From the NCBI GenBank assembly GCA_963855995.1, contig OY979724.1, positions 3,630,858 through 3,694,857 of the forward strand: a stretch of DNA of 64,000 nt, given 5' to 3'. The notes under the pieces are model-generated. The model was not told the origin of the DNA. It did no database searches and worked only from the letters and a program-made list of their open reading frames with translations. Shown here in pieces: positions 8,970-59,433 of this stretch. The DNA comes from Muricea muricata (lineage: Eukaryota > Cnidaria > Anthozoa > Malacalcyonacea > Plexauridae). Within the stretch, counting starts at the first letter, position 1. Each line of letters opens with the position of its first letter. Made by a program: the position numbers and the translations under genes.

Positions 8970-9350
8970 CTAGTTAAATATTACAAGTTCTTTCGAAGCT
9001 TTAGTTCCATGATTCAGTTCAGGTTTAAACCGTCGTACGGCGAGCGATTCTTTAAAAAGCAGTAAAGACCAGTGGTCTGCAGATTTGTCGATAATCTTAG
9101 AGCTGTTTAGAATAAACTCCGGTTGTATGCAAGTAACAGTAGAATTATTTTCGTGGTAGGGATTAAGTTCCAACATAGATTTGATATGTTGAAAGTGTTC
9201 GCAGTTCATAATGTGATTGAAAATTTCCAATTTATTGTCCTGTGAATGTTCCTTTAATCTGGTGTACAGACATCGATCAGTTTTGCCAATATATCTACTG
9301 TTGCATCCAGGGCACGTAAACTCATATACAACTGAGCTTTGGTATTTCAT
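8970..9350 (-). pseudogene. GIY-YIG endonuclease region of the Penelope-like element
   Basis: A 126-codon open stretch. The nuclease motif appears as VYEFTCPGC, NSRYIGKTDRCLYTRLKEH and later PEFIL and FKPELNHGT. The Cys-rich CPGC before RYIGKT is typical of Penelope-type GIY-YIG domains, which nick target DNA during insertion. It is separated from the RT by at least one frame change, so the element cannot make an intact polyprotein. The stop is at 8970-8972, just before the terminal repeat. Confidence 0.88.
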
Positions 9351-9463
9351 TGGGGTTTTATCTTTGTTTGACAGGCATGAGTTGCTGCTTGTGGTTCTCC
9401 AGATAATAACGAACGTGCATTTTATCTTTAGTAAAGGGGTTACTGTATTTATAAACGAGTGGG

Positions 9464-10665
9464 TTAGTCTATTGCCATATTGTCCAAGTTAGGGCAAATG
9501 TATCCAAATTTTGGGAATATTATTGCTTGTTGAATTCTTATTAAGATTATCATGGTCAATTTCAATTTCGTAGTGGTCTGATCGTGGTTTGAATTCTTCC
9601 GATAGTTTCGCCGATAGTTTATAAGGAAAACCATTCCATGACATAAAGTCCAGAATACGCTTATAAGTTCATCTTTTAATAGGGTTTCGTTGCTGTAAAT
9701 CTTATATGCACGATTGACAAGAGATCGAATCCAGGCCACTTTTCTCGACCAAGGAGAGAAACTGGTTATTTGCTGATACGGACCAGAGTGAGTTGATTTT
9801 CGGTAAACAGTTGTATCACATGGATGAATTTGAATACCGAGAAAATGAATGTTACTGTCAGAGAACTGATCAATAGTGAATTGAATGTTAGGATGAAAAG
9901 AATTAAATGCAATCAGTACGTTTTTCATGTCTGCAGGTTTAGCTAAAATTAGTGTGTCGTCAACGCAACGTTTATAGAATCTAATGTGACCAGATGTTAT
10001 CATAGGTCGAATGACTAGGTTTTCAAATTCCGTCATGATAATATTAGCAAGAGTGTTGGACGTCAATTTGTTTGTAGAGTTGACCGTTTAATGAGAAAAT
10101 AACTAGTTTTAGTGCAGGAGTCAAGGATTAATTACTTCCGAGTTCGTTTCTGTGACGTTGTTGAGACAAGATTAGATTTATAATTAAGACAAATCTATAC
10201 CCTTCATCGAGTAAATTGCGAGGAATGTTGTTGATATGCGATACAGCGTCAAAACTATCTTTTACACTAAATTCATTTGTCGTTACAGGATTTAGTGGTT
10301 TAGTTAGGAATTTAGCAACTGGTTGGTAGGCCGTTCCTGTTGTGTTTATATTTGGTCTGAACGGTGGTAGATCATCAAATGTTTTGTGGATCTTAGGTAA
10401 GCCATGAGCTCGTGCTGGTTTAGTCGAGACAGGTCTCATGTTGTCGTAATCTGTTTTAGCTAGTTATTTCATTACGATTATAAATTGTGCGAAGATAGTT
10501 TTGTAGTGTTACCAATTGAGTTAGCTAGTGCTGTGTCTTTGCCGGTTAACCTTCTTGAATTTAGTAGGGTTAGAGAAAAGCTCATTCATGCAAATTTTGT
10601 AGTCTAGTTTCTTAATTAATACAACAACGTTCCCTTTGTCTGGTTTCAGTACTGCATATCTTTCA
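9464..10665 (-). pseudogene. Penelope-type reverse transcriptase, frameshifted
   Basis: Read on the minus strand in several frames. At about 10605-10665 lies a YAVLKPDKGNVVVLIKK peptide, the N-terminal RT block; at 10128-10439 ARAHGLPKIHKT with FRPNIN (fingers); at 9464-10066 the palm, with RFYKRCVDDTLILAKP. The catalytic box is CVDD where Penelope elements usually have YVDD. The pieces follow the family order, but frame breaks lie between 10.07 and 10.13 kb and between 10.44 and 10.6 kb, so this copy is defective. Confidence 0.87.
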
Positions 10666-10848
10666 TGTAAGTTCTTATGAATCTTGATACGTTTGTTGCC
10701 GATATTAAGTTGTCGGTCATCAAAGTTGAGGATGTTGCAAGCGAAAGCCTTAATTGAGTTCTTAACTTTCTGATGTTTGATAAAACCGTCAGGAAGTACA
10801 TTTTGATAACAAAGTTGGTCCCAAATTGATTCTGCAGTAGCAGAATCC

Positions 10849-11033
10849 CTACCACGAAAATAATTCTACTGTTACTTGCATACTACCGGAGTTTATTCTA
10901 AACAACTCTACGATTATCGACAAATCTGCAGACCACTGGTCTTTACTGCTTTTTAAAGAATCGCTCGCCATACGACGGTTTAAACCTGAACTAAATCATG
11001 GAACTAAAGCTTCGAAAGAACTTGTAATATTTA
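10849..11033 (+). repeat. Inverted copy of the GIY-YIG 3' coding end
   Basis: This stretch is the reverse complement of 8981-9168 with few differences (for example CGCTCGCCATACGACGG against the complement of CCGTCGTACGGCGAGCG). It encodes the tail of the GIY-YIG reading frame on the plus strand. It stops exactly where the foldback element begins at 11034, and the terminal repeat that should follow reappears at 12617. Confidence 0.9.
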
Positions 11034-28186: not shown

Positions 28187-28463
28187 ATATATAATATACT
28201 AACGGTGATGTTGTACTCGGGTAAATATGATATTATATTATCATATTTACCCGAGTACAACATCACCATTAGTATATTATTATATTATATAACTAGACTC
28301 TGTTCCGAAATATCACTTATCGAACCGTCCTGACCGTGTAGCTCAGTTGGTAGAGCGTTGGGGCTAGTATTCCAAAGGTCGGTGGTTCGAATCCCGCTGT
28401 GGCCAGGCAAATTTTTCAGCCTGCCCAGTGTGGTTTACACTCGGAGTAGCATCACAATATCAT
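28187..28463 (+). mobile_element. tRNA-derived SINE with a palindromic 5' extension
   Basis: A Pol III A box TAGCTCAGTTGG (28339-28350) and a B box GGTTCGAATCC (28384-28394) lie in a tRNA-like head starting about 28331, followed by a tail of about 60 bp with CAGCCTGCCCAGTGTGG. The anticodon loop has eight bases and the acceptor stem is imperfect, so this is not a functional tRNA gene. The unit is flanked by the 12-bp direct repeat AATTTTAGCACA (28175-28186 and 28464-28475), as expected for LINE-driven insertion. A related copy lies at 45790-45918. Confidence 0.85.
28192..28279. repeat. 88-bp near-perfect palindrome inside the SINE unit
   Basis: Arms of about 40 bp (TAATATACTAACGGTGATG, TTGTACTCGGGTAAATATGA) pair with a single mismatch around an AT-only centre. 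RNA from either strand would form a long, almost perfect hairpin. It lies between the left target duplicate and the tRNA-like head. Confidence 0.9.
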
Positions 28464-34296: not shown

Positions 34297-37200
34297 ATGG
34301 CAAATTTCGATGTAGACATGGCTTACCAGGATTTGTTGGAAGGTAGGATTATTTTAACGAACAACTTCATGTAGTTCTAACATCGTTGCTATTCAAAAGC
34401 CGATTAAACAATTAATTAACCACCCTGCAAGGGTCATGATCGTTTTGGTTGACATATTCGCAGCGACAAAATGTAATTCTACAACTCCAAATCCATATTT
34501 GACCCATAAAATTTGATACAAATACGGCGATCCAAGACTTGTATTTTTACAATCACGTTCTCTATTATGTTTGTATTTTTATTGCAAATTCAGTCAGGTA
34601 TTTTGGGTGTATTTTTATTAGAAGTATGTGTTGAGGGCATGCATGCTTCATAAATGTATGGATGTGGGTACAGCCCATGTAATTGAAATATTCCCCTCCC
34701 AACCCTTCATGTAATATTTAACATACGAGCACGAGTGCTTTATCAGAGCACGAATTGCGAGTATTTTAAAAAGCTTCAAAAACGTTCCATTTTATATCCA
34801 TCTTGTTAGTTTGTTTGCGAAAGAAATTTCAATATAGATGTGGTATAAGCCGAACTATACCGATAGTCCTTTACATGCTTCGCGCTCGGGGAAAAATAAT
34901 GGACATGCCCTAAAAACCCAGAACTGAAAAATGCAAACTGCATGTAGTTAGCATGCAAGCGATACCAGTTTTAGTGAATTTAACCTATAATTTTACCTTA
35001 GCTTAATTAAGAGCAAAACAAAGCCAAAAGAGGGACGTACAACTGCTCGAAACGTTTTTCAAACGATTTATACGTACATTCAATGTATATCTTGTTTGTT
35101 TAAAAGAAAAGATTCAAAACAAACATTTGAACGAAAGTTTTAGACGAGAAATTAATTTTATCCAATACAGACTTACTAATGAACCTCAACAAGCGGTAAA
35201 AAACAACAAAAACAATCAAATCAAAGAATTCTTCAATCTGGTAATCGTCCTTAATTACTATACATCATGCGTCGCATTTCCGCAATACTCATACTTGACC
35301 GTCACTGACCTAAGCTGTAAAAAATACCGCATATATCAAGTAATGAACAGATGAAAGGCTTTGATTTCAAGTCTACACAGCTATTTCAATTAAGGTTGCC
35401 TTTCCAAAAGCCAAACTGTAAACTACGAGCACGCAATGGGCGATGGCTTATCGTTTATTTAGGCCCTGGTGCTCAGCCAGGAATCGCCTTTGTAACAAGT
35501 AAATTTGCCGTCGCAGTTTTACCATGTGCTCGCGACTACTTTAATGAAATAATTCTGAGCTTAGCGGTGAAAATAAGCAATCACCCATCATCCTTTGCGC
35601 GCTCACAGTTTGCGCTTTTGGGAGGACAACCTTAATCGAATTAGCTATGCAAGTTTCGTTGAATATGCAAAGCATCTTAATGACGCGCCGGCTCGACGAC
35701 GCGCCTTCGAAACTGGAAGAGTTTTTTTCTAGAAGACAAAAACTATGAATGCGTTGACCCCGCAGTATTCTCATTTGCGTAGTACAACGACAATACAACG
35801 TCGAACTGAGCATGATTACGTCACTTGAGGAACGGAAAAGCATGCTATGACGCGGAGTGCAATTCAGATCTATCCAGTAACAGATACCACATCGTTGTGG
35901 CGAACAAACTGTTTGTCAGTTGCTAAAACAACCTTCAAACAATTACACTGAAGCAAATTCCAAAAAACCCTTTCCCATACATATATGGGCAACGCATTAG
36001 GACTAATAGAAAGATGACCGGCTGGCCAACTTCCTGAAAATTTACCTCTGATGGCATTTTTTTGTTACAAGTTGCAAACGGGCATTTTCTTCGGGAACTC
36101 TGATTTTATATGTTTCATAATCGGAAATTTAAGAATTTTAAAATGTTTTCTATTGAAAGCACTAAAACTTAATTTCTCCACAGAAATTAGCGATATAACA
36201 TTAGTAGAATCATACTAGTATTCTATTGCAAATGCTGTAATTTGATTGGTTACTCTACTCGCTATCTATTCCTCGATAGATAGTGAGTAGCGAAACAATC
36301 ATCTTCCTATAGAGATTTCTTTTGGGGAAATTGCTTAAAAATCAAATTTTTTGTTGAATATTCCATGTTTGACCTCTGATTCTACTAAAACAATTAGATT
36401 ACTCGCTCTCGATTTCTATGCGGTGATAGTTGATGAGGGCTTCGCCCTCATCAACTATCACCGCATAAGAAATCTCGAGCTCGTAATCTAATTGTTTTAA
36501 AATTAGAATGACTGCAAGAAAGTATATATAAGTTCAATGGGTGGTGCGAACTTTCCAGTCGGCCGTTTTGGAGTAAGGAGTTCAAAATTGGCAAATTCTC
36601 AAACCAGATGGTTCTCGAATTTTCGGTTATGAAACTAAAATTTGCGTTTCCAACATACCCACCTTCCTTATTAATGCATATTATACTCGTATAAAATGTC
36701 AGTTGGCAGCTCGTAACAGAAATGCCATCAAACAAATTTTGGTGTACATTTTCAGGTTTTGACCAACCGTCTATAACACTTAATTGTTGGTGTCTCCACG
36801 CTAAGAGAGAATAGAAGGGTTACTATGATAAAGTTTTCTAACTTATTAGCGTTATTTTGTGCCACATATTTTTTCGGCAAGAAATTTACAAAATAAAACT
36901 ACTGGCATGAAGCTAAAAAAAAATCATGAAAATATTTAACTGCTTTAAATGGCACTAATTGTTTATTAACAGGCCCCTTCTAGCAAGACAAGAGAGCCAA
37001 GTTATTTTTTTATTTGGGCGGAAGCGCATGTGGGAAGCAAATATACATGTACAAACTTCGCAAGACTATATTTTCCGCATTTTATAACATTTCGAAACAA
37101 AACTTTGCATATATTACTATAATTTAATATGCTCTTGATTTCTAGCTGTAAGAATGAATTTCGTTATACCTGCTAGATTTAGTCTGTAGCTATAGAATTA

Positions 37201-40200
37201 TTTATTAATTCGTACATGCAACATCTTGGCAGCGGCGAGAAGGGTCCACTTTTTTTATACACCCCGTATAATTTGCGCTCCTATACTCTATAGCTAATTA
37301 TATTTGCGATCACATAAATCTCGATTTGACGTCCTGAAATTTTAACATAACTACTTAATAAGTAGCGCTAGCTCACAGATTATAGATGACCTCGACGATT
37401 TCTAAGTATCAATGACAATGTAAGAATTAATAGACTGCATGTCATTCTTTTGAGTTCAATTAAAATTTATACGACAATATACGACTATATAAAGTATTCG
37501 ATTTGATCCAAGACCATACAAAATCATTTTCACTCAACTGTACTAGCTATACAACGTGAAATTTACTGAGACGCGTCAGAGATCGATTTAGACGATGCGG
37601 AAGATTTGAATGTTTTGCCGGATCAACAATTGAGGCATTATGTTGTGATTAGAAAATTGAACTTTACCAAAAAGTTCCGCAAGGGCATTTAAATGACTTT
37701 CAAAGTCATATATCAGGAAATTCAAAGACTAAAAAGAGTGGTTAAATCCGTCTCGCTTGGTTTCTGGGCATTTTTGGCGTTGAAAATTTGCATTTAGAGC
37801 ATTATTAAGGTGTTTTTGTTTTCAAATTTAACGACATTCAAGGATATCATTCATGTTTCGTGCGAACCCTGCTGTGCAAATGTACTAATAAACGCTAACA
37901 CGCCCTTCAAGCGCTATTTTTATAATATCGTAGGTACAAAATATGAGTGGTAGTATCAACATTTCATAATTATTGCACTAGTTTAATTTACTTTGGCTGT
38001 CTATTTACTACCTTTTTAGGCCGGGACCCAGTATGATAAAACATACAAAATTTTCCAAAAAAAGAACAACATTAAATCGTGCACTCATCCATGCCACTAT
38101 GAGTTGAGGTTGCGTCATAGATATCTCATATACACTAGATAGCGGATCTGTATATCAAAAAGTGAAACCAAAATTCTCAGCGGTATCCCCTCATAACAAC
38201 AGGCGGCAGCCATATTGATCGTTCCCACTCATCAAAAAAATGCTACAGAAAACACTATACTTTCGCCATTTGTGTATTAAATACTTTTTAGCTGCATAAA
38301 AGAGGACTTATTGTCAACTTTGTCCATCTCACAATTACGCATGTGCACAACCCACAGACACGCAATTTATTCAGACGCTTAAGGCCCCTTCTCCCCTTTT
38401 GCTCTCGTCTTTCGCAACGCGAGCACTGTGAGGAATTTTTGAGATTTTGAAAACCAGATTTGTCATGGCCCAACATATTGGCTTGTCGAAAATCAATAAC
38501 ACATTTGGTATGCTTTCTTCTTATTTGATGCATTACTGTTTATTATTTTTTGTCATTTATCTATCTTGTATTTCGTTCCTCTATCTTTCTAAACATGTGC
38601 CAGCCCCTATTCCTCGCTGACGAGTCGACGAAGGACGAAACGCCGCGTACGGGGATATCTGCTTTACACACATGAAAATTCCTTCTTTCATTCCTTCTAC
38701 TAACTTTTTACATTATCTCCTACAAGCTTTTTTGTATAACAGACCAGTATATGTCTTGTCCCGTCGCATTTCGTGTTTAATACACTACATGACGTCTAGC
38801 TATTTTTTACTCGTTACATACTCATTGTTACTGTTGTTACAAAATTTTGCCCATTTTACTTGATACTAATACAGTTTCTATTACCTATTTAATTATTCCC
38901 ATTTCTACATATTGTTTTTTACCCTCCCTGTCTCATATATTTACATTTAGTCACTCTGGCCTGACCTGCCCTCATGCTATATCATATTTCATATTACATG
39001 TAGACTACCCCTTTATGAACAAAGGGACTGTTGTCACAGAATATTATTTTATTTTGCTAGACACCAATATGGTTCATATTACCTAATACTTAATAAAAAA
39101 TAATGCAAACGATTTTGAAGCACTGCTTATGTGAATGAAAGCTAACCCGAAAAACCGAATACTAGCTACTATTATCATGTTACTGTGACGTCACCCGTGA
39201 CTTGGTATATGGCGCATTAACCCACGAAGGTCCGAAAGATAAACTGTCTTTGTGTCTGCAACTACCTGGGAAAATATCTCAAACGTGGTAGCTCGGACTG
39301 GCGAGTCTGGGTAGTAATTATACGATAATCTGTTGAAATTTGTACTAAAGATCACAAACCTGCTGGTCTAGTATACAATAAGCTGTTGTGGTTTGTGCCT
39401 GAACTACCTGAATAACGTATCTCAAACGTGGTGGTCCAGTGTAGGTAGTATTCTACAATAAGATCTCGTGGTTTGTCTCTGAACTACATAAAACTACTCT
39501 ATAGTGCAGATATAGTATTCTACAATAAACTGTATTGGTTGTCTCAAAAGTGGCGGTCAAGTGTAGGTAGTATTCTACAATAAGCTGTCGTGGTTTGTGT
39601 CTGAATTAAAAATATTAGCTTAACATTATTGACTTAGATATCTCAGACGTGGAGCCCAATGGCCATGCAGTGGGGAAAATTCTACAAACAGAACCAGAAT
39701 GTGTCTAGACTAAAAATCATCAGCCGTATACAATTAGGGATCTATTGTACTTCATGCATAGTAGTATGATATATTTAACGACAATGTTATGAAATAATAC
39801 TAAAATTTGTATATATGAAGGGCATGATAAAAGATAAACGTTGCTAAACCATGGCTGATGACAATAACATTAAAAAAACATGCGTATAAGCCAACAACCA
39901 AAGAATTTTTCAAACACAGAGTGTGTAAAACTATAGTTACTCAATATCATATAACAAGATGTTGAAATAATTCTTTCGTAGTCGAAAAGAATTGGGTTTT
40001 AACTCGGAATTTTACGATACCTTTGAATTATTGTGCAACACTAGTGCAATTTTCCATTTTTCGATCGTATTGTTGATTTTCCCTATAAACAAAAAATTGT
40101 CAAATTTAATTCACGAATGGAAGTAAATTTGAACAGACTTCGACCGATAGTTACCATTAGGTTCGACTACTGTTTCGGTATAGAGATATTCAAATATTGA

Positions 40201-43200
40201 GAACGCTAGAGCAGTCGAAAGTTCGATCAATTGTTACATATCCTGTATTTGAGAAATAGAATAGGACAGGCGGGCAGGGGGGGGGGGGTTGCATTGGTAT
40301 TTGATACTGTTATGCTTGATAATTGTTATATACGTAATACATTTGCATAAAGTATAAAATAATAAATAAAAACTAGAACCATCATGTAATGCATACCCGC
40401 CGAAAGTCTCAAGGCAGACTTGCGCGCAGGTAATTGCGTACTAAAACAAATCACAACAATAAGTCGTAACAAATAAGGCGCATTTTACACAACAATCACG
40501 CAAATCCATAACATATCACGCAAACAAGCCATTATACTAAAAACTGACGACTTCCTTATCGAGACCACAAAGCATGCTGGAACGAGCGTTGGAAAGCGCA
40601 CGACAGAGACTTGGAACGAACAGTGCAAACAACTTTTGGGGCTTTTCCTTAGAGATAACGAGACACCTTTTAATATCTATTTTCTTGACCCAATTTTTAC
40701 TTTTAAAGTTTCTCGCCACCTCCAATTAACAATCGATGGATGTTTTGCGGTGCCGAAAAAGAAAATGGCTAATTCATTAAGCTTTAAACACGTCAAAAGC
40801 GACGCGGCCATTCAACTACTCTTGCCCGTTCACCGTTTCTATAACAAGAAAAATCTATCCATTAAGTTTACAACAAAATACTTCGTCAGATGAAATATTA
40901 TACGCGCTCAAAATGGCGACATATCTTTAACGCAAAATCGCAGATTATTCATCTCTAATGACGCTGATGTTGACGTAGATTGATGTCAGTTCGCTGGCTT
41001 GCGCCCGTCAATCATGATAGGGGCCAATGCCATGAATTAATCTACCAGACTTGTAAAGTATTGATATGATAAGTCTAAACAACCACGGAAGGTAAAAACA
41101 ATGGAAACTTGACAACAGTTTTACGTCATTAACAGACGTACAACTTAAAAAAAAGCACGTAAGCGCTCGAAGCTGTGTTCTCGTGAGACGTGGACTCGAC
41201 CCTCGAAGCGACCTCGTTGATATTTTATGCGCGAAGCCGATTTTCCACCAGACACTAGCGAATATTTTTCGCACGAAGCAGAAGAATATTTTTGTGCCCA
41301 AACCAGTGAAATCTATAATACTGGAACGATAACCCTAGCTAAAAGCTGGCTGTTTGGAAATAGTTTTAGCACAATTTTCCCAAAAAGACTGGGTAGTGAT
41401 AAAGAATTAATATTTCATGAAAAATTGATAAATACATGTTTAATTAAGCACTGTCTGTATACACTGATACATAATGATCCATAATGATAGACAAAATCGG
41501 CTGACTTTTGTTTATCCACAATTCACCACAGGAGACTAGGATAAGCAAAACGCCCTTTGAAATCCGTTATTCTGTGCCTGTGGAGACAAAATTTTTATTG
41601 GGAAAAGATGGAAGTGCATATTCTAGGTCCAAATACGACCATGTTACACACAAGGCAATTTTTCCTGCAACTTGGCTTATGTAATGCGACACTTGCATGA
41701 ATTCGAAGAAACCACAAGTATTAACCTCTGCCAGCATAATTATTTCGCACATTACTTATCATACGTATCTCATGTTTCCAATATTATCTATAATTTTTAT
41801 GTAAATCGCGCATTTTTGTAAAAAAATGTTATACACTGCAATTAATTCGTTTCACATTCTTTTGCAATATAAGGACCACTGCATGCATTGGACGAACAAT
41901 CCAATATTTTTTACACAATATAATGACGTACTAGTTTCGATTGCAATCAAACCTACTTAGTAAAGATATAAAAAATAAGGCATGGATCACCACTTAAGGA
42001 AAATCTCTACATTTAAATATTAGTTAGAAATTCAACACGTGAAATGCAGCAGAGAGTCAATACAATAGAGACACGAAAGTGATACACACAGGACTTTCGA
42101 TTTCCGTTTTGTCCAGCGGGGGCGGCAGCCAGAAAACCAAGATTAATCCTGTTTTAGGCAAACTGGATATCTCTACATTTCAATGTTAGTTAGAAATTCA
42201 GCAGATGAAATGCAGCCGAGATTCAATACAATAGAGACACGAAAGCGGTGCATATAGGACTTTCGATTTCCGTCGTGCCCAGGGAGGGCGGCAGCCAGAA
42301 AACCAAGATTAATCCTGTTTTATGCAAATTGGATATCTCTACATTTCAATGTTAGTTAGAAATTCAGCAGATGAAATGCAGCCGAGATTCAATACAATAG
42401 AGACACGAAAGCGGTGCATATAGGACTTTCGATTTCCGTCGTGCCCAGGGAGGGCGGCAGCCAGAAAACCAAGATTAATCCTGTTTTAGGCAAACTGGAT
42501 ATCTCTACATTTCAATGTTAGTTAGAAATTCAGCAGATGAAATGCAGCCGAGATTCAATACAATAGAGACACGAAAGCGGTGCATATAGGACTTTCGATT
42601 TCCGTCGTGCCCAGGGAGGGCGGCAGCCAGAAAACCAAGATTAATCCTGTTTTAGGCAAACTGGATATCTCTACATTTCAATGTTAGTTAGAAATTCAGC
42701 AGATGAAATGCAGCCGAGATTCAATACAATAGAGACACGAAAGCGGTGCATATAGGACTTTCGATTTCCGTCGTGCCCAGGGAGGGCGGCAGCCAGAAAA
42801 CCAAGATTAATCCTGTTTTATGCAAACTGGATATCTCTACATTTCAATGTTAGTTAGAAATTCAGCAGATGAAATGCAGCCCAGATTCAATACAATAGAG
42901 ACACGAAAGCGGTGCATATAGGACTTTCGATTTCCGTCGTGCCCAGAGAGGGCGGCAGCCAGAAAACCAAAATTAATCCTGTTTTATGCAAACTGGATAT
43001 CTCTACATTTCAATGTTAGTTAGAAATTCAGGAGAAGAAATGCAGCCGAGATTCAATACAACAGAGACACGAAAGCGGTGCACATAGGACTTTCGATTTC
43101 CGTCGTGCCCAGGGAGGGGGGGGGGGCAGCCAGAAAACCAAAATTAATCCTGTTTTAGACAAACTTTGTCCTAAATTTGTGCAGAATAAAGTAATTAAAA

Positions 43201-46200
43201 ATGAACTGCATGTTGACCTGGTCAAACGGCAACAAAAGAAACAAGCATACACACATTCATCTGATAAAATAAAAACTTCCAACTCAGATCTGATTGGGAA
43301 AGTGCCACGGTGAACCAATAAGGAAGTACCTTTACTGCACCCGTGAAATTTTGAACTAAAATAGCTACTAACACGATCAGTTGAGTGCGCTTTCAAAGGA
43401 CCATTCCCCAATTAGACAAACTTTTAAATTCGAAAACAAACTTTAGCACAGTTAGAAAGAGCTGCCTAAATTTAGTGGAATTGTGAAGTTTGGTTGTAAA
43501 ATATTGTAAAATGTTGAAAATGCAGTAAATTAAGTAAAGTTGTCGAATTTTGTATACTTTTGCATTACGTGAGAAAAATTACGTGAGAAAAATTACAGTA
43601 ATACAAAAGTATACAAAATTCGCAAACTTTACAAGACTATCTTTTCCACATTTCATAATATTTTTCAACCAAACATGAAAATTAGTATGCTCTTACGGCT
43701 GTGCTAATTGATTTTCCGAACTCAAAAGTTTGTCTAATAGGGGAATTCTAAAACTGAATTTAAAGCTTGGTTCTCATATGTCACCGACGATCATTGCCTG
43801 TGATCACTCTTGAATAAAATCCTTTGTTGATTATCTCCTTGAATGATTACCGACGATGAATCACCGACATACGTAGACCAGGCTCAACAAAAAAGCCGTG
43901 ACGAAGATATATATAGACCTGCCAGGACCAAGCAAGTTCAAAACAATTTAGGACGGCGGTGGGTTTTTCACTTTTATTCCGTCTAACCGAAACAAATATT
44001 GCTAGGCGGTATATATGAATATAAAAACTCAAGAAAAGCTTAGCGATGGCATGTTCTGGAAACAAGTTAATAAATCCTGATGAAAGATGGTCACAAGCAT
44101 GACATCTGCTCGTCTCAGATATTTTTTGAGGCACGTTTCACTAAAACAATGATGTCATGATGCAGGCTATGCTATATAACCGGCACTTGTTTAAAAAGAA
44201 AGAATACTAGATTTCAGATAGTTTCATTTTGTCATCATTATATAGTAGCTACAAATTTTGCTCGGCTGCAAACTGGTCTTGGATCATGCAGACCTATATA
44301 CCGAGTTCTCAATAATTTAGAAACTGGTGTTTAAATGGACGAGTAGAAAATTGTAGACAAGGTATAATTATTTTATGCTTTTACATGCAAGACGCAAATT
44401 TTAATCAATGCCCGGGTTTCATGTGACGTCATAGATTTCAGTGGGGTTACTTTATGAAAGGGGACCGAGTCATCAAAGCGAATTCGATGTTCATGGTGGG
44501 TGCAATGTCACATCATTTGCTCACTTTAGTACAGCATAACCACCAGTACAGTTGAGGTTTGTCGCCATCCAGACTCACAGCATAATAGCGTAGCGAAACC
44601 CAAGATAAGGAAGCTGAAAAAATTTTGAATCTACTGAAAATTTCGTTGATAATTCTTGTATTAAGCACATTTTCACCGTTGCTTCCACGTTCCTAAGAAT
44701 TTGGTTAAAGGCCCTATACTATAGTAGGCCTGGCTTTACATTGATATAGCTACACTCCCTACAGTAATCGCCTATTATGCTTAGTAAAACAAAAGTCTAA
44801 ATTGAAAGCTATTGAAATGACGTTTGACCTGGTGTTTATTTGGTGTAAATAGCTTATACTGAACCCGAGATACGGTTTCGCAAAGTGATCCGTCACCGGT
44901 GACCGACTTTGGTAGGGCCCGGCGAGGTGTTAAAGCAACTTTTTAAGTTTTTTTTACACTGTATATAGTTACCAAGATAATTTTAAAACAGCTCTCCCGC
45001 GCCTCGGAAAGCTTATTTAAAAAAATGTCGCAGGATTTGCAATAATTTTTGACCGCTTGCTATTTCGTATGTCGCTTTGGCTCTGTATAGTGCAATTCGA
45101 TGAGCATCAGTTCGACCACAAATTTCTAACTAATCAAAATCGCGACGATTACATCCCGTCACAACATAGGATGGCACCATAATCGTGAAACGACATAAGA
45201 GTTAAGCATCTCAACGAGCAAATAAAGAACACTTTGCCAGCAAAATGCATAATATGTGTAATTGTCAGGAAGTCCAAGTGTTATTGGAAAGTCTAAAAAG
45301 TGAGTGGGCGAATATAGTTAGCGCAGCTGCAGGAATATGATGGCAGGCACTAGAAAGAAATAGAAAACCGACACGTAAGATCTAGACCATCATAATTTTC
45401 AAACCCCGAGACACATCTATATCGATAAAATTCACCATGAAGTAGTCACGCCTCTCTGAACACGAACACTTCTTTTTCATGCCAAGTATGGCACGGAAAG
45501 TGTGTAATATCAGTCTCGCCCACCACCACCAAGCGTCGCTTCCTCCAATTCCATATCAAATATTTAATCTTCGCGTTTACTATTTTTATTGTGCCTGTGT
45601 ACTCAGGTGGAAATTATATTTGTGATGTTACTTTTAGTGTAAATATTTTCCCAACACTCGTAGCAAAGCGCACGAAAAAAATTGAAATGTTTGCAAAACC
45701 AATTGGTACACGTATAAGACATGACGAGTTGTCTTCAAGTTTGCTAGCTTGGTCACGTTCCGACATTTCGAAACTTTACAGCAACACGTGACAGTTGTGG
45801 TGTTACACTGAATTGTCACTTGGGAAGCTGGAAAGTATGTTGGCCGCGGTGGGAATCGAACCAACGACCATTGGAATGCTACCCGAATATGCTCTACCAA
45901 CTGAGCTACGTGGTCAGGTACTGGCCCACGTGTCGGCATGACGATTTGGCAGCTATTGCCCGCCTATTGGGCAAGCTTTCCAAATCGTAGTCTCGATTCA
46001 AGTGTGGATTTAGAGTTATAAAACAAACGTTACTAAGTGTAGCTGAAAAGCTTCAGAACTTTGACACGTGATCAAGCAAGCACATTGAAAGACGTATGCA
46101 GTGCACCAATTGATTTCGTAAACATCTGAATTTTTTTTTTATTTGCTTTGCCAGGAGTCCTGGGAAAATATTTAAACTCGGCTCACGTGTATTCCAATCT

Positions 46201-55200: not shown

Positions 55201-58200
55201 ATACACACACAACTATGTGTGATGTGCAAGAATCGTTATATAAACCCTTAAGGGCAAAGAAGTTTGACGAATTTAAATTATATGATTTAAATATTTAATC
55301 GCATTTATTTTTTTATATATACTTTGATGACCGTTAGAGTACGAAACTATAAGAAGGGGATTGCATTAGTGACCTTTATCAGTTTAATCTTCTGGACTAT
55401 ACATGCACTATTCAACAGTAATTGTGGGCATTACAATACAAAAGCTTGAAAAGGTACATTTTACCTATTGATATCAAACATGTACAATATACGTTCACGG
55501 TATTTGGGTGTGAATTACAATGCAAAGCCACATGACAGGATGTTTTCTAAAATTAAATATGAGCTAATAGGAGCTATAGGGACTTTGCCATGCTCTGAAG
55601 CCCAACCCACGCTGCAAATCGATTGGTTGCCACTTAGGGAGGCAATGCCGGGCTATATATACAAGGATAAATTATGTATATAGAAATCTTACATCAAACA
55701 CTTTGACCAGTCTATGTCTTTCGACTTACCTATAGTGAGAGTGTATATATATGCGAGGCAATCGTAGAGTACTTTGACGATGTCCTTAGATTGTGGAAAT
55801 ATTTATATCAATCACATGGGTAGGTAAATATAATTGTAAAGATAAATACAATGTAATATACAACGCAAAATATATATAACGCAACTTTGTAAATATATGG
55901 AGTACCATTCACAATTTCTCTAAACAATGTTATAAAAATGATATGCTGTGGTTGCAGTTATCGAGAACAGGAAATTGCTTCGCTAATTTCATTTGATATT
56001 GCACTTCAACACAATATATAGCAATAAACAGACATATTATCTAAGTCTTTCGTCGCCTGTAAAGACATTCCGAGACCTTCCATCTAAAAATTCCCACCTT
56101 TTATTTGTATTTTTATGTATTTAAACATTATATAATATTTTGTCGCGGCATAGATTCATGAACTTTGTTCGAGACAGTTGCATTGGCCTCTATCGTACAA
56201 AAATAGTATTAGTTGCAGTTTCAAAAGGGAGAGAATAACATTTGTACAATAGATGTATTATACATGTCCTTTGTTCAGTCTGTATAGCTGTATATAATGT
56301 ATACTTGCAGTAATAAGTTTAATTTCTACCCTCATATACAAACATTAGATTCAACAGCTATGAAATCATACTAGCAACTTTCGAAGAGTTAAGCTTGTAC
56401 ATTGATAGCGAACTTCTACATTAGGATACGCCTAAGTTATACGAGTCTAAAACGACACGGTAGAAATGAACGTGCAGGAACACCTAACTTGTTTACAAGC
56501 GATGTTTGAACAACATTTGAATACAACTGATAATAATGTTTATCTTGTCAGCACGTTCTTTCATATCATGACGTCATACCGCTTATTGACACTAAGCACA
56601 AACAAGCGCGTGGTAACTGGCGCGTAAGTCACGCGCGACCTCCTGCATATCACGAGAAGGTGTAGAATTTCAATTTGGACAATAGTTAGCAATTTTGACA
56701 ATGATCTTGCAAAAGTTGGCACGAAAATCAAGTAAATTTCGCTTACGCAACAGTTTAAGTTCATGATTATAATATTTTTTGCATGGATAACAGCACTTTA
56801 AGATTTGAAAGTCATATTTTACAGCTTACTCAGAGTACAAATATATTATACAGCAGATATTGTTTTGCATTGTATTGTACATGGTATTTCCGCACATCAA
56901 CAAAACTCTTTAAAAAACTTTTGCCTGCCAAAAAGAAAACAACGGAAACAAGAAAAATGTACTAACGGACGACACACGTCATCTGTTTCAGAGCAAAGGC
57001 TAGATATACTAACGGGACTGAACAATGTTTTGCTGTCCATATTGTTCACAGTTTTCAACAATATTGAACAATATTGTTGAGCCTCAATCGTGTGTAACAA
57101 TGGATGAACAATATTGTTGACAACTGTGAACAATGTGGGCAGCAAAACATTGTTCAATCCTTTTTTCATCAACATAGCAACATGTTGTTCATTTTTTGCT
57201 GTTTGTTACATGCGAAAATAGATTCATAAGCATGTCATCTAGTAAGTAGCAGGGTAAAAATACGAAAAGTTGTGTTGGTAATGTAATATGGTAGATATAA
57301 TTGCAGTGTTTTGGTTATCGGGGGGGGGGAGCTGGAGCGGGGGGGGGGGGGGCTGGAGCGGGGGGGTCAAACAATGCCAAAATAGAAATTATTTAAAGAT
57401 GGCTGCTACGAGCTTAACATTATCAAGTGTTTGGAAAGTTCGAAACTCCCAGTTAAAAAAGACGTTGTAAGTTAATTGACATTTCACGTTAAGATGGAAA
57501 AAAGCATTTACATTTAATTTCAAAACCCACCTAGCACCAACCGTAGAGACATAAAAACCAATGTTGCTTGATATTAGAACTGATAATGAAATTCACCATG
57601 ATTAAAAACATAACGCATGTCGACTTTACCGTGAACCTTTGCGAACCTAACGCAGTTTTACTACAAGAAGTTTGAACTAATTTATTTTATTTGGACTTGT
57701 CAGGACTTGCATGATACTTTGATGCCCTAAAATATTAAACGTCCGATTGTTTTTGAACATATAAAGTCTAGTCTTCGCATAGCATTGGCAAGGAAGACAG
57801 TTACAAAAATTCTGTATACCAAAGAAGTTACACAGAAATTTTACTGACCTTTGCAATGCAATCAACAAAACGTTAGACGACATTTCTTTTAATAAACACT
57901 TTAACATGTGTTTCTTTTAACCTATAGATTGCTACGACCCAGACTTACTGCAACGTTATGACTCAATGGGGAGTTTGCGTTCTTCGCAGTACGATTCTCC
58001 CGTCCACAGTCAAAATCTTAGCGAGTGGGTAAAGACGAGCATCATGGGAGATTACAACCCAGCGAGTTTTGATTACGTGCCAGAGCACTCTAGTAGCTCA
58101 CGAGGTCAAACGGACCTATTAGTTTACAAAGCACAACAGCTGATCGCGCAGCCGCGCAGCTTTGATGACTGTACGTGTTCGTCTTATTCATCAGATGCAC

Positions 58201-59433
58201 CCAATTGTACCTGTGATGCCGTAAAAACAGAAAACTCAAAGCCAAGGTATTATTTTTTAACCATTAAGCCGGTTTTCCAATTTTTTCGCGCGAAGCGACT
58301 TTTCTCTTTTGTCTTAGCTCAATTAGTTCCGCATGGTTGCAGCTGAAAGCTCAAGAACAAAGGGAAAAAGTCGCCTCGCGCGGAAAAAGTCGCCTCGCGC
58401 GGAAAAAGTCGCTGATGGAAAACCGGCTTTACACGCTCAGGGGCGCGCAAAATTGAATGACTAGTTAATGTCCCGTCTGCGCATTGGTTCTACTTTATAA
58501 CAAACCCATGACCCACGAATGTAAACCTTGAATCAAAACCACAGTATAGTGAATAAACAGTAGTTTGAGCAAACAGTTGTTTTCATGCTCTTTAAATAAA
58601 ATTTTCAGCTATCATCTCACCCACTCAGCAGGTTTCTAACCCAATAAAATTCTTTGTGAGATTATTGTATCCAAATCCAATAATTATTGGGATTATTGCG
58701 GTTAGGGTTGGGGTTGAGGTTTGGATCAGGGTTCATTCTATATGCATGACATAACATAACCGCCCCTCCTCTCACGTTGCCCCCCTCCCCAACAATGCAG
58801 CATTTGCAGTCGTATTCTACTAGGTTTTCACTGACAAGAATGCATGATCTATATTTCAGTGTGGGACAAGACTTGGCGTCCGTGAAACAAAATTACCAAA
58901 GAACTCAAGACGGTTGGTTGAATAATGTAAACTTCAACCGAATGCAAAAAGAGAAGCAAACTCTCTTCCAATCTCTGGTTGTGCCCGACCCCTCGAACGA
59001 ATACCCGTTCTACATGAACTATGATGGTAGTATCTACGATCAGGAACTTAATCAATCTCTGCCATTGCCAAATCAGTCTACCCCTGAAATGCAGCGAGTA
59101 CCTGGCGAGGCTACGTACAACGTGCCAAGCCCCATCACCAGCCCCGGTCCTAATAAGCCTAAAACCTCACGGCCAAGGCTTTGTCATTTTCTGTTGGAGT
59201 TGCTTGCAAATCCGGCCCAGTACTCGGACATCATCGAGTGGGTGGATAAAGAAAAAGGAGTATTCAAGTTCCTTAACTCGGCCGAGGTTGCGTCCAATTG
59301 GGGACGAAGACGCAACAAGCCTCACATGAAATACGAGAATTTCGCGCGTTCGTTACGAACCTACATCGCGAAAGGTATCTTAACAAAACCACGAAGCAAG
59401 TTGGTGTATCGTTTTACGAACAAGTTTTACTAG
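34297..59433 (+). CDS. ETS-domain transcription factor, Spi/PDEF-like, four coding exons
   Basis: Seen: exons 34297-34342, 53884-53940, 57928-58246 and 58860-59433 (stop TAG), 331 codons; phases match at every junction and all introns are GT..AG. The ATG context is AAAATGG. Residues 1-245 are low-complexity, rich in Ser, Pro, Gln and Asp/Glu, with no Pointed domain visible. The ETS domain is residues 246-331, at the extreme C-terminus: RLCHFLLELL, EWVDKEKGVFKF, SAEVASNWG, then the recognition helix MKYENFARSLRTYIAKG, ending KLVYRF. Arg304 and Arg307, the pair that contacts GGA, are kept. Known: ETS factors bind GGAA/T sites in the nucleus. The usual YYY after the helix is T-Y-I here, closer to the N-Y-G of PU.1. 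The first short exon is the least certain; extra phase-1 exons could lie in its 19.5 kb intron. Confidence 0.86.
35379..35648. mobile_element. Family-F foldback element, copy 2
   Basis: AGCTATTTCAATTAAGGTTG at the left and CAACCTTAATCGAATTAGCT at the right, with inner arms CCTTTCCAAAAGCCAAACTG against CAGTTTGCGCTTTTGGGAGG and AATGGGCGATGG against CCATCATCCTTTG. TTAA occurs near both ends but lies inside the terminal repeat, so it should not be read as the target duplication. Confidence 0.8.
36255..36290. repeat. Short inverted repeat CTACTCGCTATCTAT
   Basis: Fifteen-base arms CTACTCGCTATCTAT and ATAGATAGTGAGTAG (one mismatch) flank TCCTCG. A relative (CTTGCTATCTATCGAGGAGTAG) occurs at 48364-48386. 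It lies 100 bp upstream of the family-E palindrome; both families recur together near 48.2-48.4 kb. Confidence 0.7.
36389..36496. mobile_element. Family-E palindromic element, intact copy
   Basis: Arms of about 52 bp beginning AACAATTAGATTACTCGC, through GATTTCTATGCGGTGATAG to TTGATGAGGGC, pair with the right side around a TTC centre with only a few differences. Other copies: 31273-31370 (decayed) and a half-element at 48159-48206. It has no coding capacity. Confidence 0.85.
37050..37140. mobile_element. Family-A foldback, single-arm fragment
   Basis: ACAAACTTCGCAAGACTATA, TTTTCCGCATTTTATAACAT, CAAAACTTTGCA and AATATGCTCTTGATTTC match the right arm of the family-A elements (compare 43620-43700). 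The left arm is missing, so it is a solo half. Confidence 0.65.
38601..38662 (+). ncRNA. Type I hammerhead ribozyme in ETS intron 1
   Basis: Seen: core CTGACGA (38617-38623) and GAAA (38637-38640). Stem II is GTC/GAC (38624-38626 with 38634-38636) around a 7-base loop. Stem III is ACG/CGT (38640-38642 with 38646-38648) around CCG, followed by the required H17 as A38649. Stem I pairs TCCTCG (38611-38616) with CGGGGA (38650-38655), one G-U, with a further CAG/CTG pairing beyond an internal loop. Known: these positions are the invariant hammerhead residues, and short-stem-III type I ribozymes occur in animal retrozymes and Penelope-like elements. Predicted cleavage follows A38649, on the same strand as the host gene. 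Inferred: active or recently active. No second ribozyme or RT lies nearby, so it may be a solitary insertion. Stem III is only three pairs. Confidence 0.85.
39255..39620. repeat. Irregular tandem repeat of about 80-90 bp, orientation 1
   Basis: Units carry ATCTCAAACGTGGTGG, CCAGTGTAGGTAGTATTCTA, CAATAAGCTGTCGTGGTTTG and TGTCTGAACTACCTG in order; about four to five diverged copies. A family member array in the opposite orientation lies at 49400-49640, 10 kb downstream in the same intron. Confidence 0.78.
42003..43164. repeat. Seven-copy tandem array of exactly 166 bp
   Basis: ATCTCTACATTT begins units at 42003, 42169, 42335, 42501, 42667, 42833 and 42999: every spacing is 166. Each unit contains GTTAGTTAGAAATTCAGCAG, GATTCAATACAATAGAGACA, CGAAAGCGGTGCATATAGGA, CTTTCGATTTCCGTCGTG and AACCAAGATTAATCCTGTTT. 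The first unit is the most diverged; the last has a G-run expansion (GGGAGGGGGGGGGGC) near 43110. Overlapping ORFs are artefacts of the repeat. It lies within ETS intron 1. Confidence 0.95.
43402..43749. mobile_element. Family-A foldback element, copy 3
   Basis: Ends CCATTCCCCAATTAGACAAA and TTTGTCTAATAGGGGAATTC are inverted. Arms contain TTTAGCACAGTTAGAAAGAG, TGAAGTTTGGTTGTAAAAT and TTTTGTATACTTTTGCATTA; the centre repeats GTGAGAAAAATTAC. This copy best defines the termini of the family. Confidence 0.85.
45790..45918 (-). mobile_element. tRNA-derived SINE, copy 2
   Basis: On the minus strand an A box TAGCTCAGTTGG (complement of 45897-45908) and a B box GGTTCGATTCC (complement of 45852-45862) lie in a tRNA-like head. 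A tail follows with TTTCCAGCTTCCCAAGTG and AGTGTAACACCACAA, which resembles the tail of the copy at 28.3 kb. The anticodon stem has a mismatch. The related tail is what separates these from true tRNA genes. It is antisense to the ETS gene. Confidence 0.78.
48159..48206. mobile_element. Family-E half element
   Basis: ATTGTTTTACTACAATAATG precedes ACGAGAGCGAGTAATCTAAT and TGTTATAG, the outer end of the family-E palindrome. The inner ATGCGGTGATAG core is absent. Further ATCTAATTGTTTTACCAC follows at about 48241. Confidence 0.6.
49400..49640. repeat. Irregular tandem repeat of about 80-90 bp, orientation 2
   Basis: Contains TAAACCACGACAGCTTATTG, TAGAATACTACCTACACTAC and CAACGTTTGAAATAAC, the reverse complement of the unit at 39255-39620. 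About three diverged copies. The two arrays could pair over 10 kb within the primary ETS transcript. Confidence 0.75.
57014..57160. repeat. Inverted repeat built of AACAATATTGTT words
   Basis: TGAACAATGTTTTGCTG at the left is mirrored by CAGCAAAACATTGTTCA at the right, with inner arms ATTGTTCACAGTTTTCAACA and TGTTGACAACTGTGAACAAT. Similar wording (CAATGTTGTCAACAGTATTG) occurs at 1672-1760 in SLC22 intron 1 and at 30460-30545, so it is a dispersed family. Confidence 0.75.
57319..57366 (+). repeat. G-run cluster, possible G-quadruplex
   Basis: Three runs of 7 to 13 consecutive G separated by AGCTGGAGC or CTGGAGC within 48 bases, on the sense strand of ETS intron 2 about 560 bp before exon 3. 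A G-quadruplex needs four G tracts, and the long runs can supply these. The region is also prone to length errors in assembly. Other poly-G runs lie at 23451, 40276 and 43115. Confidence 0.75.
58268..58435. repeat. Foldback element in ETS intron 3 with tandem repeat in one arm
   Basis: The left arm AAGCCGGTTTTCCAATTTTT with CGCGCGAAGCGACTTTT pairs with the right arm, where the segment GCCTCGCGCGGAAAAAGTC has been duplicated in tandem before GCTGATGGAAAACCGGCTTT. It begins about 20 bases after the exon 3 donor. The extra copies exist only in the right arm. Confidence 0.85.

Follow-up and report, generated by a model that had tools for sequence, protein, structure and literature searches.

Hammerhead ribozymes of Penelope-like elements (PLEs) and Terminons are reportedly the subject of papers by Cervera and de la Pena (2014), Arkhipova (2017) and Lunse (2017). 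In the available text of PMC7761336, the hammerheads of both are described as minimal forms without helix III or loop-loop tertiary contacts, their role as a mystery, and those of PLEs as lying in pseudo-LTRs, often in tandem. In an Anolis PLE, according to the accessible sections of PMC11167929, the motif overlaps the start of an open reading frame (ORF) with reverse transcriptase (RT) and GIY-YIG domains, and insertion in vitro did not need hammerhead cleavage. The endonuclease-deficient PLEs of bdelloid rotifers have two ORFs, with an RT frame lacking an endonuclease, and Terminons carry a hammerhead at the 3' end (PMC6431247, in the part available). Retrozymes of corals, in the portion of PMC7229834 that covers them, measure 220-240 bp, and Acropora is a cnidarian host.

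The hammerhead described here is very probably the 3'-region ribozyme of a PLE that apparently lacks an endonuclease, present in the window (the whole stretch of 64,000 nucleotides of Muricea muricata DNA that was analysed) as an aged, 5'-truncated sense insertion upstream of the coding exons of an ETS gene. The motif is a type I hammerhead at 38611-38655 on the forward strand, in sense orientation, and reads CCUCG-CUGACGA-GUC...GAC-GAA-ACG...CGU-A-CGGGG; it aligns to the Rfam model Hammerhead_1 (RF00163) over model positions 1-45 of 45 with 32.3 bits, and to a family model, R1 (built from 15 sequences, the window copy among them), with 83.5 bits. The invariant core (CUGANGA / GAAA / UH) and three stems are present, stem I being open. 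The 5' strand of stem I (38611-38616) pairs with 38650-38655 and is followed by the core CUGACGA (38617-38623), by stem II and its loop (38624-38636), by the core GAA (38637-38639; both core segments were read in the sequence) and by stem III (38640-38648; A15.1-U16.1, C-G and G-C, with a 3-base loop). From its position within the core, cleavage is predicted between A38649 and C38650 (38649-38650), after H17 = A. The preliminary description had listed all invariant positions (CUGACGA, GAA, A15.1-U16.1, H17 = A) and three stems in type I order with a cut at A38649/C38650, and the sequence and the Rfam alignment confirm both; stem II has three pairs rather than four, 38627 being a G where the family has C. 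The hammerhead together with its flanks CCCCUAU and UAUCUG, which fall outside the Rfam model, forms a conserved ribozyme block (38604-38661, forward strand), in which 56 of 58 bases are the same as at L039, a dispersed locus with a Penelope-like RT upstream of a full 3' region.

The score of the window hammerhead is below the curated gathering score (32.3 versus 34 bits), with an E value of 1.6e-6 when 261 bases were searched with 4227 Rfam families and of 6.6e-4 when the 453-Mb genome was searched with this one family. A covariance score under the family threshold had been named in advance as speaking against a hammerhead, and for the window copy that is the outcome. The same scan found a hammerhead match in none of 14 control genomes.

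The motif had also been described as solitary, which the genome contradicts: the window hammerhead sits in a dispersed repeat family, and the scan with RF00163 (453 Mb, E<=1e-3) returned at least 55 hammerheads, a lower bound resting on 74 scored candidates from 54,994 first-look candidates. Fifty of them are above the gathering score, and the window's scores lowest. Fifty-one were read (30 loci, 20 loci and the window; the remaining four are further matches on contig C14) and sorted by eye into the window's family (36), a sister family with a CUGAUGA core and a shorter loop II (8), and a retrozyme-like group with a long stem I, some copies of which lie 240 bp apart (7). Two more copies of the window's family, L063 and L066, are located downstream of RT genes. 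All family copies were found through either the hammerhead or the RT, so that any copies starting 3' of the ribozyme would be missed. The homologous copies dispersed in the genome establish the window motif as a hammerhead by descent.

Within the retrozyme-like group, L009, L010 and L012 (G000:C1:118243855-118244485) are type I hammerheads whose stem I is long, two of which lie at a spacing of 240 bp and are accompanied by an inverted copy; they are likely an octocoral retrozyme, similar in size to those of Acropora as given in the available part of PMC7229834. Separately, L082 and L083 (G000:C14:6344273 and 6798331) and four more matches at 6.58-7.57 Mb place six hammerheads on one contig; L082 and L083 have a broken core (A9 to U) and share a foreign 3' side, as if amplified inside something else.

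The repeat that carries the window hammerhead is a 5'-truncated copy of a Penelope-like element, 774 bp long and comprising the 3' region only (38329-39102, forward strand; delimited by blastn to dispersed copies). It is mostly 86-94% identical to copies of its own family by blastn (82-84% in the main pieces for L035), and 73-82% identical to the sister family across short stretches. In 17 of 19 aligned copies the 3' end is common, CUAUUACCUAUUACUUAACAAAAAA or close to it and then A-rich or unique sequence; the other two, L031 and L035, break off before it. The 5' breakpoints vary among copies, that of the window copy being unique to it, and no target-site duplication is recognisable around the window copy. 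A conserved 3'-terminal block with the A-rich 3' end, delimited by the common 3' ends, occupies 39026-39102 (forward strand). The window copy is thus a 3' region of the element with the common 3' end. Compared with L039, it is 89% identical as a whole, 97% in the ribozyme block, 97% in the terminal block and 92% in the stretch between.

The ribozyme block is more conserved between the families than the sequence around it. Between L039 and six sister-family loci (a set that includes the outlier L017 and omits L020 and L085) it is 84-93% identical, compared with 39-50% for the 60 bases upstream, 44-49% from ribozyme to tail and 61-68% for the terminal block. This conservation is partly ascertained, in that the hammerhead itself served to find the copies; the effect does not extend to the CCCCUAU and UAUCUG flanks, whose conservation is suggestive of possible loop-loop contacts. 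The core is intact in 25 of the 29 distinct rows of the two related families, the broken ones being L017 (U at position 3), L066 and L090 (G at H17) and L082/L083 (U at position 9); position H17 itself is A in 20 rows, U in six, C in one and the non-permissive G in two. In alignment A2, which is fitted to the model and takes in four retrozyme-like rows (33 distinct rows in all), 97.4% of cells are paired and 29 cells carry double changes, where the shuffles average 90.6 and 7.0 respectively and not one of 500 attains either value. Six of 13 pairs are changed on both sides (11 of 500 shuffles reach this), and slid controls give at most five double-change cells. In the unfitted alignment A1 of the two related families only, five double changes among 11 distinct rows fall on one stem I pair (C-G to U-A). 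Paired cells and double-change cells exceed all 500 shuffles; counted by pairs with double changes, the alignment does not rise above the shuffles, 415 of 500 of which have as many.

Against this background the window copy appears weakened. At the stem II closing pair (38627-38633) it has a mismatched G-G, so that stem II is left with three pairs; all 32 other distinct rows have C-G there. It is also one of four among the 33 rows with a stem I wobble, a U-G pair formed by U at 38614, a position that is C in each of the remaining 28 distinct rows of the two related families. Together, the lost stem II pair and the wobble cost about 5.7 kcal/mol of predicted hammerhead fold (45-base core, -7.8 kcal/mol in the window against -13.5 kcal/mol for the family's commonest form). 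The minimum-energy fold of the window core (-10.4 kcal/mol) differs from the hammerhead fold, which lies 2.6 kcal/mol above it, compared with 0.5 kcal/mol for the commonest form; minimum-energy folds are not hammerheads even for that form and were hence unused as a test. Among the 46 R1 matches of the two related families, the window copy takes 37th place. From these models it is predicted to be a worse ribozyme than its relatives, though it may still cut in vitro.

The parent element was identified from the RT copies related to that of L039 (a genome search in which 104 matches were scored from 1,800 candidates). Nine of 12 close RT copies have the same ribozyme 1.5-2.7 kb downstream on the same strand. 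For seven the distance is 1.5-1.8 kb (RT-search coordinates compared with the hammerhead scan); among the five others (at least 85% identity, match to RT residue 399-400), two carry a hammerhead 2.6-2.7 kb downstream, and in the remaining three the element is interrupted short of the hammerhead position, so that none of the 12 continues past that position without a hammerhead. This count excludes C11:4809585+ (88% identity, match ending at residue 392), RT copies ending before that residue (for example C1:87588097+) and a minus-strand C68 copy near a contig end; on the contig carrying C11:4809585+ the hammerhead scan, itself a lower bound, lists none. Two of the nine RT-linked ribozymes carry defects: H17 is G in L066, and stem III of L063 contains a C-A mismatch.

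The RT frame is open over 662 codons in two copies, and a Thr/Pro/Asn-rich frame lies upstream of it. The RT matches RVT_1 and is related to the RT-GIY-YIG proteins P0192 (46% identity) and P0199 (42%), whose C-terminal GIY-YIG domain marks the group as Penelope-like; GIY-YIG is carried by these two among 120 listed RT relatives. No match to PF01541 at E<=0.1 was found in the RT frame of L047, in two frames of L060 or in the relatives P0089, P0091, P0094 and P0176, a result compatible with endonuclease-deficient PLEs. We take the parent to be an endonuclease-less Penelope-like element, about 5.5-6 kb long by estimate and pieced together from overlapping parts (none of the copies was read over its full length with the two frames intact), of which the most upstream part may be missing. 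In the stretches of the sister family that were read (about 5 kb upstream in four loci) there is no RT match, so that the link of that family to PLEs rests on the shared 3' block.

Several other constructions of the element were considered and set aside. L039, with an RT upstream and GIY-YIG downstream, could be read as a PLE interrupted by a hammerhead element, but P0089 and P0091 have an RT frame that stops at the same point, and the GIY-YIG piece lies beyond the A-rich end. At L060 a tail fragment lies about 220 bp upstream of the element start; a head-to-tail unit there is not supported, the start common to L061 coming after about 220 bp unlike the element, and no head-to-tail units of this family were found in the copies read. 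A weak R1 match in L056 upstream of the RT (15.7 bits) lacks a hammerhead core by eye. The head-to-head inverted pairs L024/L025 and L022/L043 prompted the idea of a DNA transposon or fold-back element, which is ruled out by the tail being in one orientation only in other copies, by the A-rich 3' ends and by the differing 5' ends. Inverted head-to-head PLE copies also occur at L050/L061/L063 and L052/L053 and as opposite-strand RT pairs on C7, C18 and C2, a recurrence that suggests a common insertion step such as template switching. Elsewhere in the genome, a PLE RT gene recurs in tandem about every 5.2 kb across G000:C2:40975972-41070665; its RT is 51-54% identical to that of the hammerhead element, and the one unit read (L058) has no Rfam match at E<=1.

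As set against the available descriptions, the family resembles PLE hammerheads in its type I motif, its PLE-type RT and its truncated and inverted copies. Unlike the hammerheads of PLEs as far as these are described in the texts at hand, its stem III has three pairs, no GIY-YIG was found in the scanned frames, the RT frame ends about 1.5 kb ahead of the motif and the 3' end follows about 450 nt beyond it, and the copies read show no head-to-tail tandem. With Terminons and endonuclease-deficient PLEs, in the accessible part of their description, it has in common the two ORFs, the lack of an endonuclease in the RT frame and a hammerhead toward the 3' end; its copies, however, are dispersed, have A-rich 3' ends and are not giant (an estimated 5.5-6 kb), and no telomere-like repeats are seen by eye at the 3' ends of the aligned copies. 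It shares the type I hammerhead with metazoan non-LTR retrozymes, for which cnidarian hosts are known (PMC7229834, relevant portion), but these consist of tandem units of 150-450 bp and bring no RT themselves, whereas here the hammerhead is in a region of a kilobase-scale, RT-bearing element. A literature search joining 'hammerhead ribozyme' and 'octocoral' gave a sole match, about fungi by its title. The family fits none of the descriptions available in PMC7761336, PMC6431247 and PMC7229834 exactly, and it may have been described earlier.

The hammerhead is on the strand of the ETS gene, as originally proposed: it is in sense orientation and upstream of the ETS coding exons. These lie at 57928-58246 (forward strand; tblastn with P0008 over 57936-58244, AG/GT bounds by eye) and at 58860-59433 (forward strand), the latter with the ETS domain and running to the stop codon (PF00178, E 1.4e-27; tblastn over 58858-59430; start placed by eye at TTTCAG). 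The best named relative of the ETS protein is from the octocoral Paramuricea clavata, at 65% identity. For the start of P0008, tblastn gives no match in the window. A candidate for an upstream exon is the open stretch at 34297-34342, which precedes GTAGG and is in phase with the exon at 57928; with it the intron would be about 23.6 kb, against the 19.5 kb of the preliminary description, in which the hammerhead lies about 4.3 kb after a putative exon 1. Also upstream of the coding exons is a tandem repeat at 42003-43165 (166 bp, seven copies, 96% matches), and there are tRNA matches at 28332-28405 (forward strand) and 45841-45915 (reverse strand), of 34.5 and 34 bits, possibly tRNA-derived repeats. 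The statement that there is no RT nearby holds for the element's own RT, for which the window has no tblastn match at E<=1, and fails for a relic of a different PLE at 8970-10865 (reverse strand), 28 kb from the hammerhead. In this relic RT-like frames are visible by eye, and a GIY-YIG match is just under the Pfam cut-off (21.1 versus 22.6 bits).

We weighed four other readings. In the least improbable of them, a PLE received a short hammerhead-bearing element in its 3' region by a single insertion and has copied it along as a passenger ever since. The hammerhead does lie outside the coding part, none of the four sister-family loci read has an RT match upstream, and single copies break beside the ribozyme (L020 directly 5' of it, L082/L083 directly 3'); against this, two diverged 3' regions agree both in having a hammerhead and a terminal block and in how these are ordered, and we judge such a single insertion unlikely. 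The relic of a retrozyme (a metazoan non-LTR repeat of 150-450 bp in tandem that makes circular RNA), one of two origins raised in the preliminary description, would account for a type I hammerhead with a closed stem III in a genome that has retrozyme-like 240-bp repeats, but the 774 bp in the window come from a kilobase-scale element with a linked PLE RT. The family copies read show head-to-head pairs and no head-to-tail hammerhead dimers, and 150-450-bp tandem units that each carry a hammerhead are not what the window's family consists of. The 240-bp repeats belong to a different sequence family, which scores 27.5-33.7 bits under R1 where it matches (L014 and L088 miss E 0.01), compared with 59.7-93.3 bits for the two related families. 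A retrozyme origin is therefore very improbable.

The other proposed origin, a host-co-opted intronic ribozyme that processes ETS pre-mRNA, draws on the sense orientation, on the invariant bases all being kept and on the position upstream of the ETS coding exons. The copy is, however, one of many that are dispersed, it is the sole row of 33 in which the stem II closing pair is lost and one of four with the stem I wobble, and its hammerhead fold lies further above the minimum than that of the commonest form (2.6 versus 0.5 kcal/mol); because the ribozyme and terminal blocks are both 97% identical to L039 and the stretch between is 92% identical, the ribozyme is not singled out in the window copy. 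Co-option finds no support here, and we hold it to be highly improbable. The score under the gathering threshold would suit a chance match, the probability of which we consider negligible in view of the genome-wide E value of 6.6e-4, the 35 further members of its family among the matches read and the covariation.

On the preferred reading, as the ribozyme of an endonuclease-less PLE, the hammerhead would fold in the RNA of an intact copy, about 1.5 kb past the RT frame, and would cut that RNA about 450 nt before its 3' end, leaving a 3' fragment with a 5'-OH. That fragment would hold the conserved terminal block, perhaps a recognition site for the RT, and the cut may free a primer-bearing 3' fragment, trim read-through transcripts or serve otherwise. 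The window copy itself is most likely carried as a passenger, with a weakened ribozyme; should an ETS pre-mRNA run across it, it may cut to some extent at 38649/38650, which would be a side effect. Its value is corrective, in that a sense-strand intronic hammerhead can be transposon debris, and the interesting part is the parent family rather than the window copy.

A bolder proposal, which we offer tentatively and consider rather doubtful, is that an octocoral lineage of endonuclease-less PLEs keeps a stem III hammerhead under selection in its 3' region, that the 5'-OH fragment with the terminal block serves as the substrate for priming, and that the lineage supplies RT to the 240-bp retrozyme-like repeats. 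If true, it would be a direct bridge between autonomous PLEs and retrozymes, a connection proposed but not shown in the available text of PMC7229834 and PMC7761336. For the family as a whole, a covarying ribozyme closed by stem III, bordered by conserved sequence and situated between the RT frame and the 3' end is a defined place in which to test the role of PLE hammerheads.
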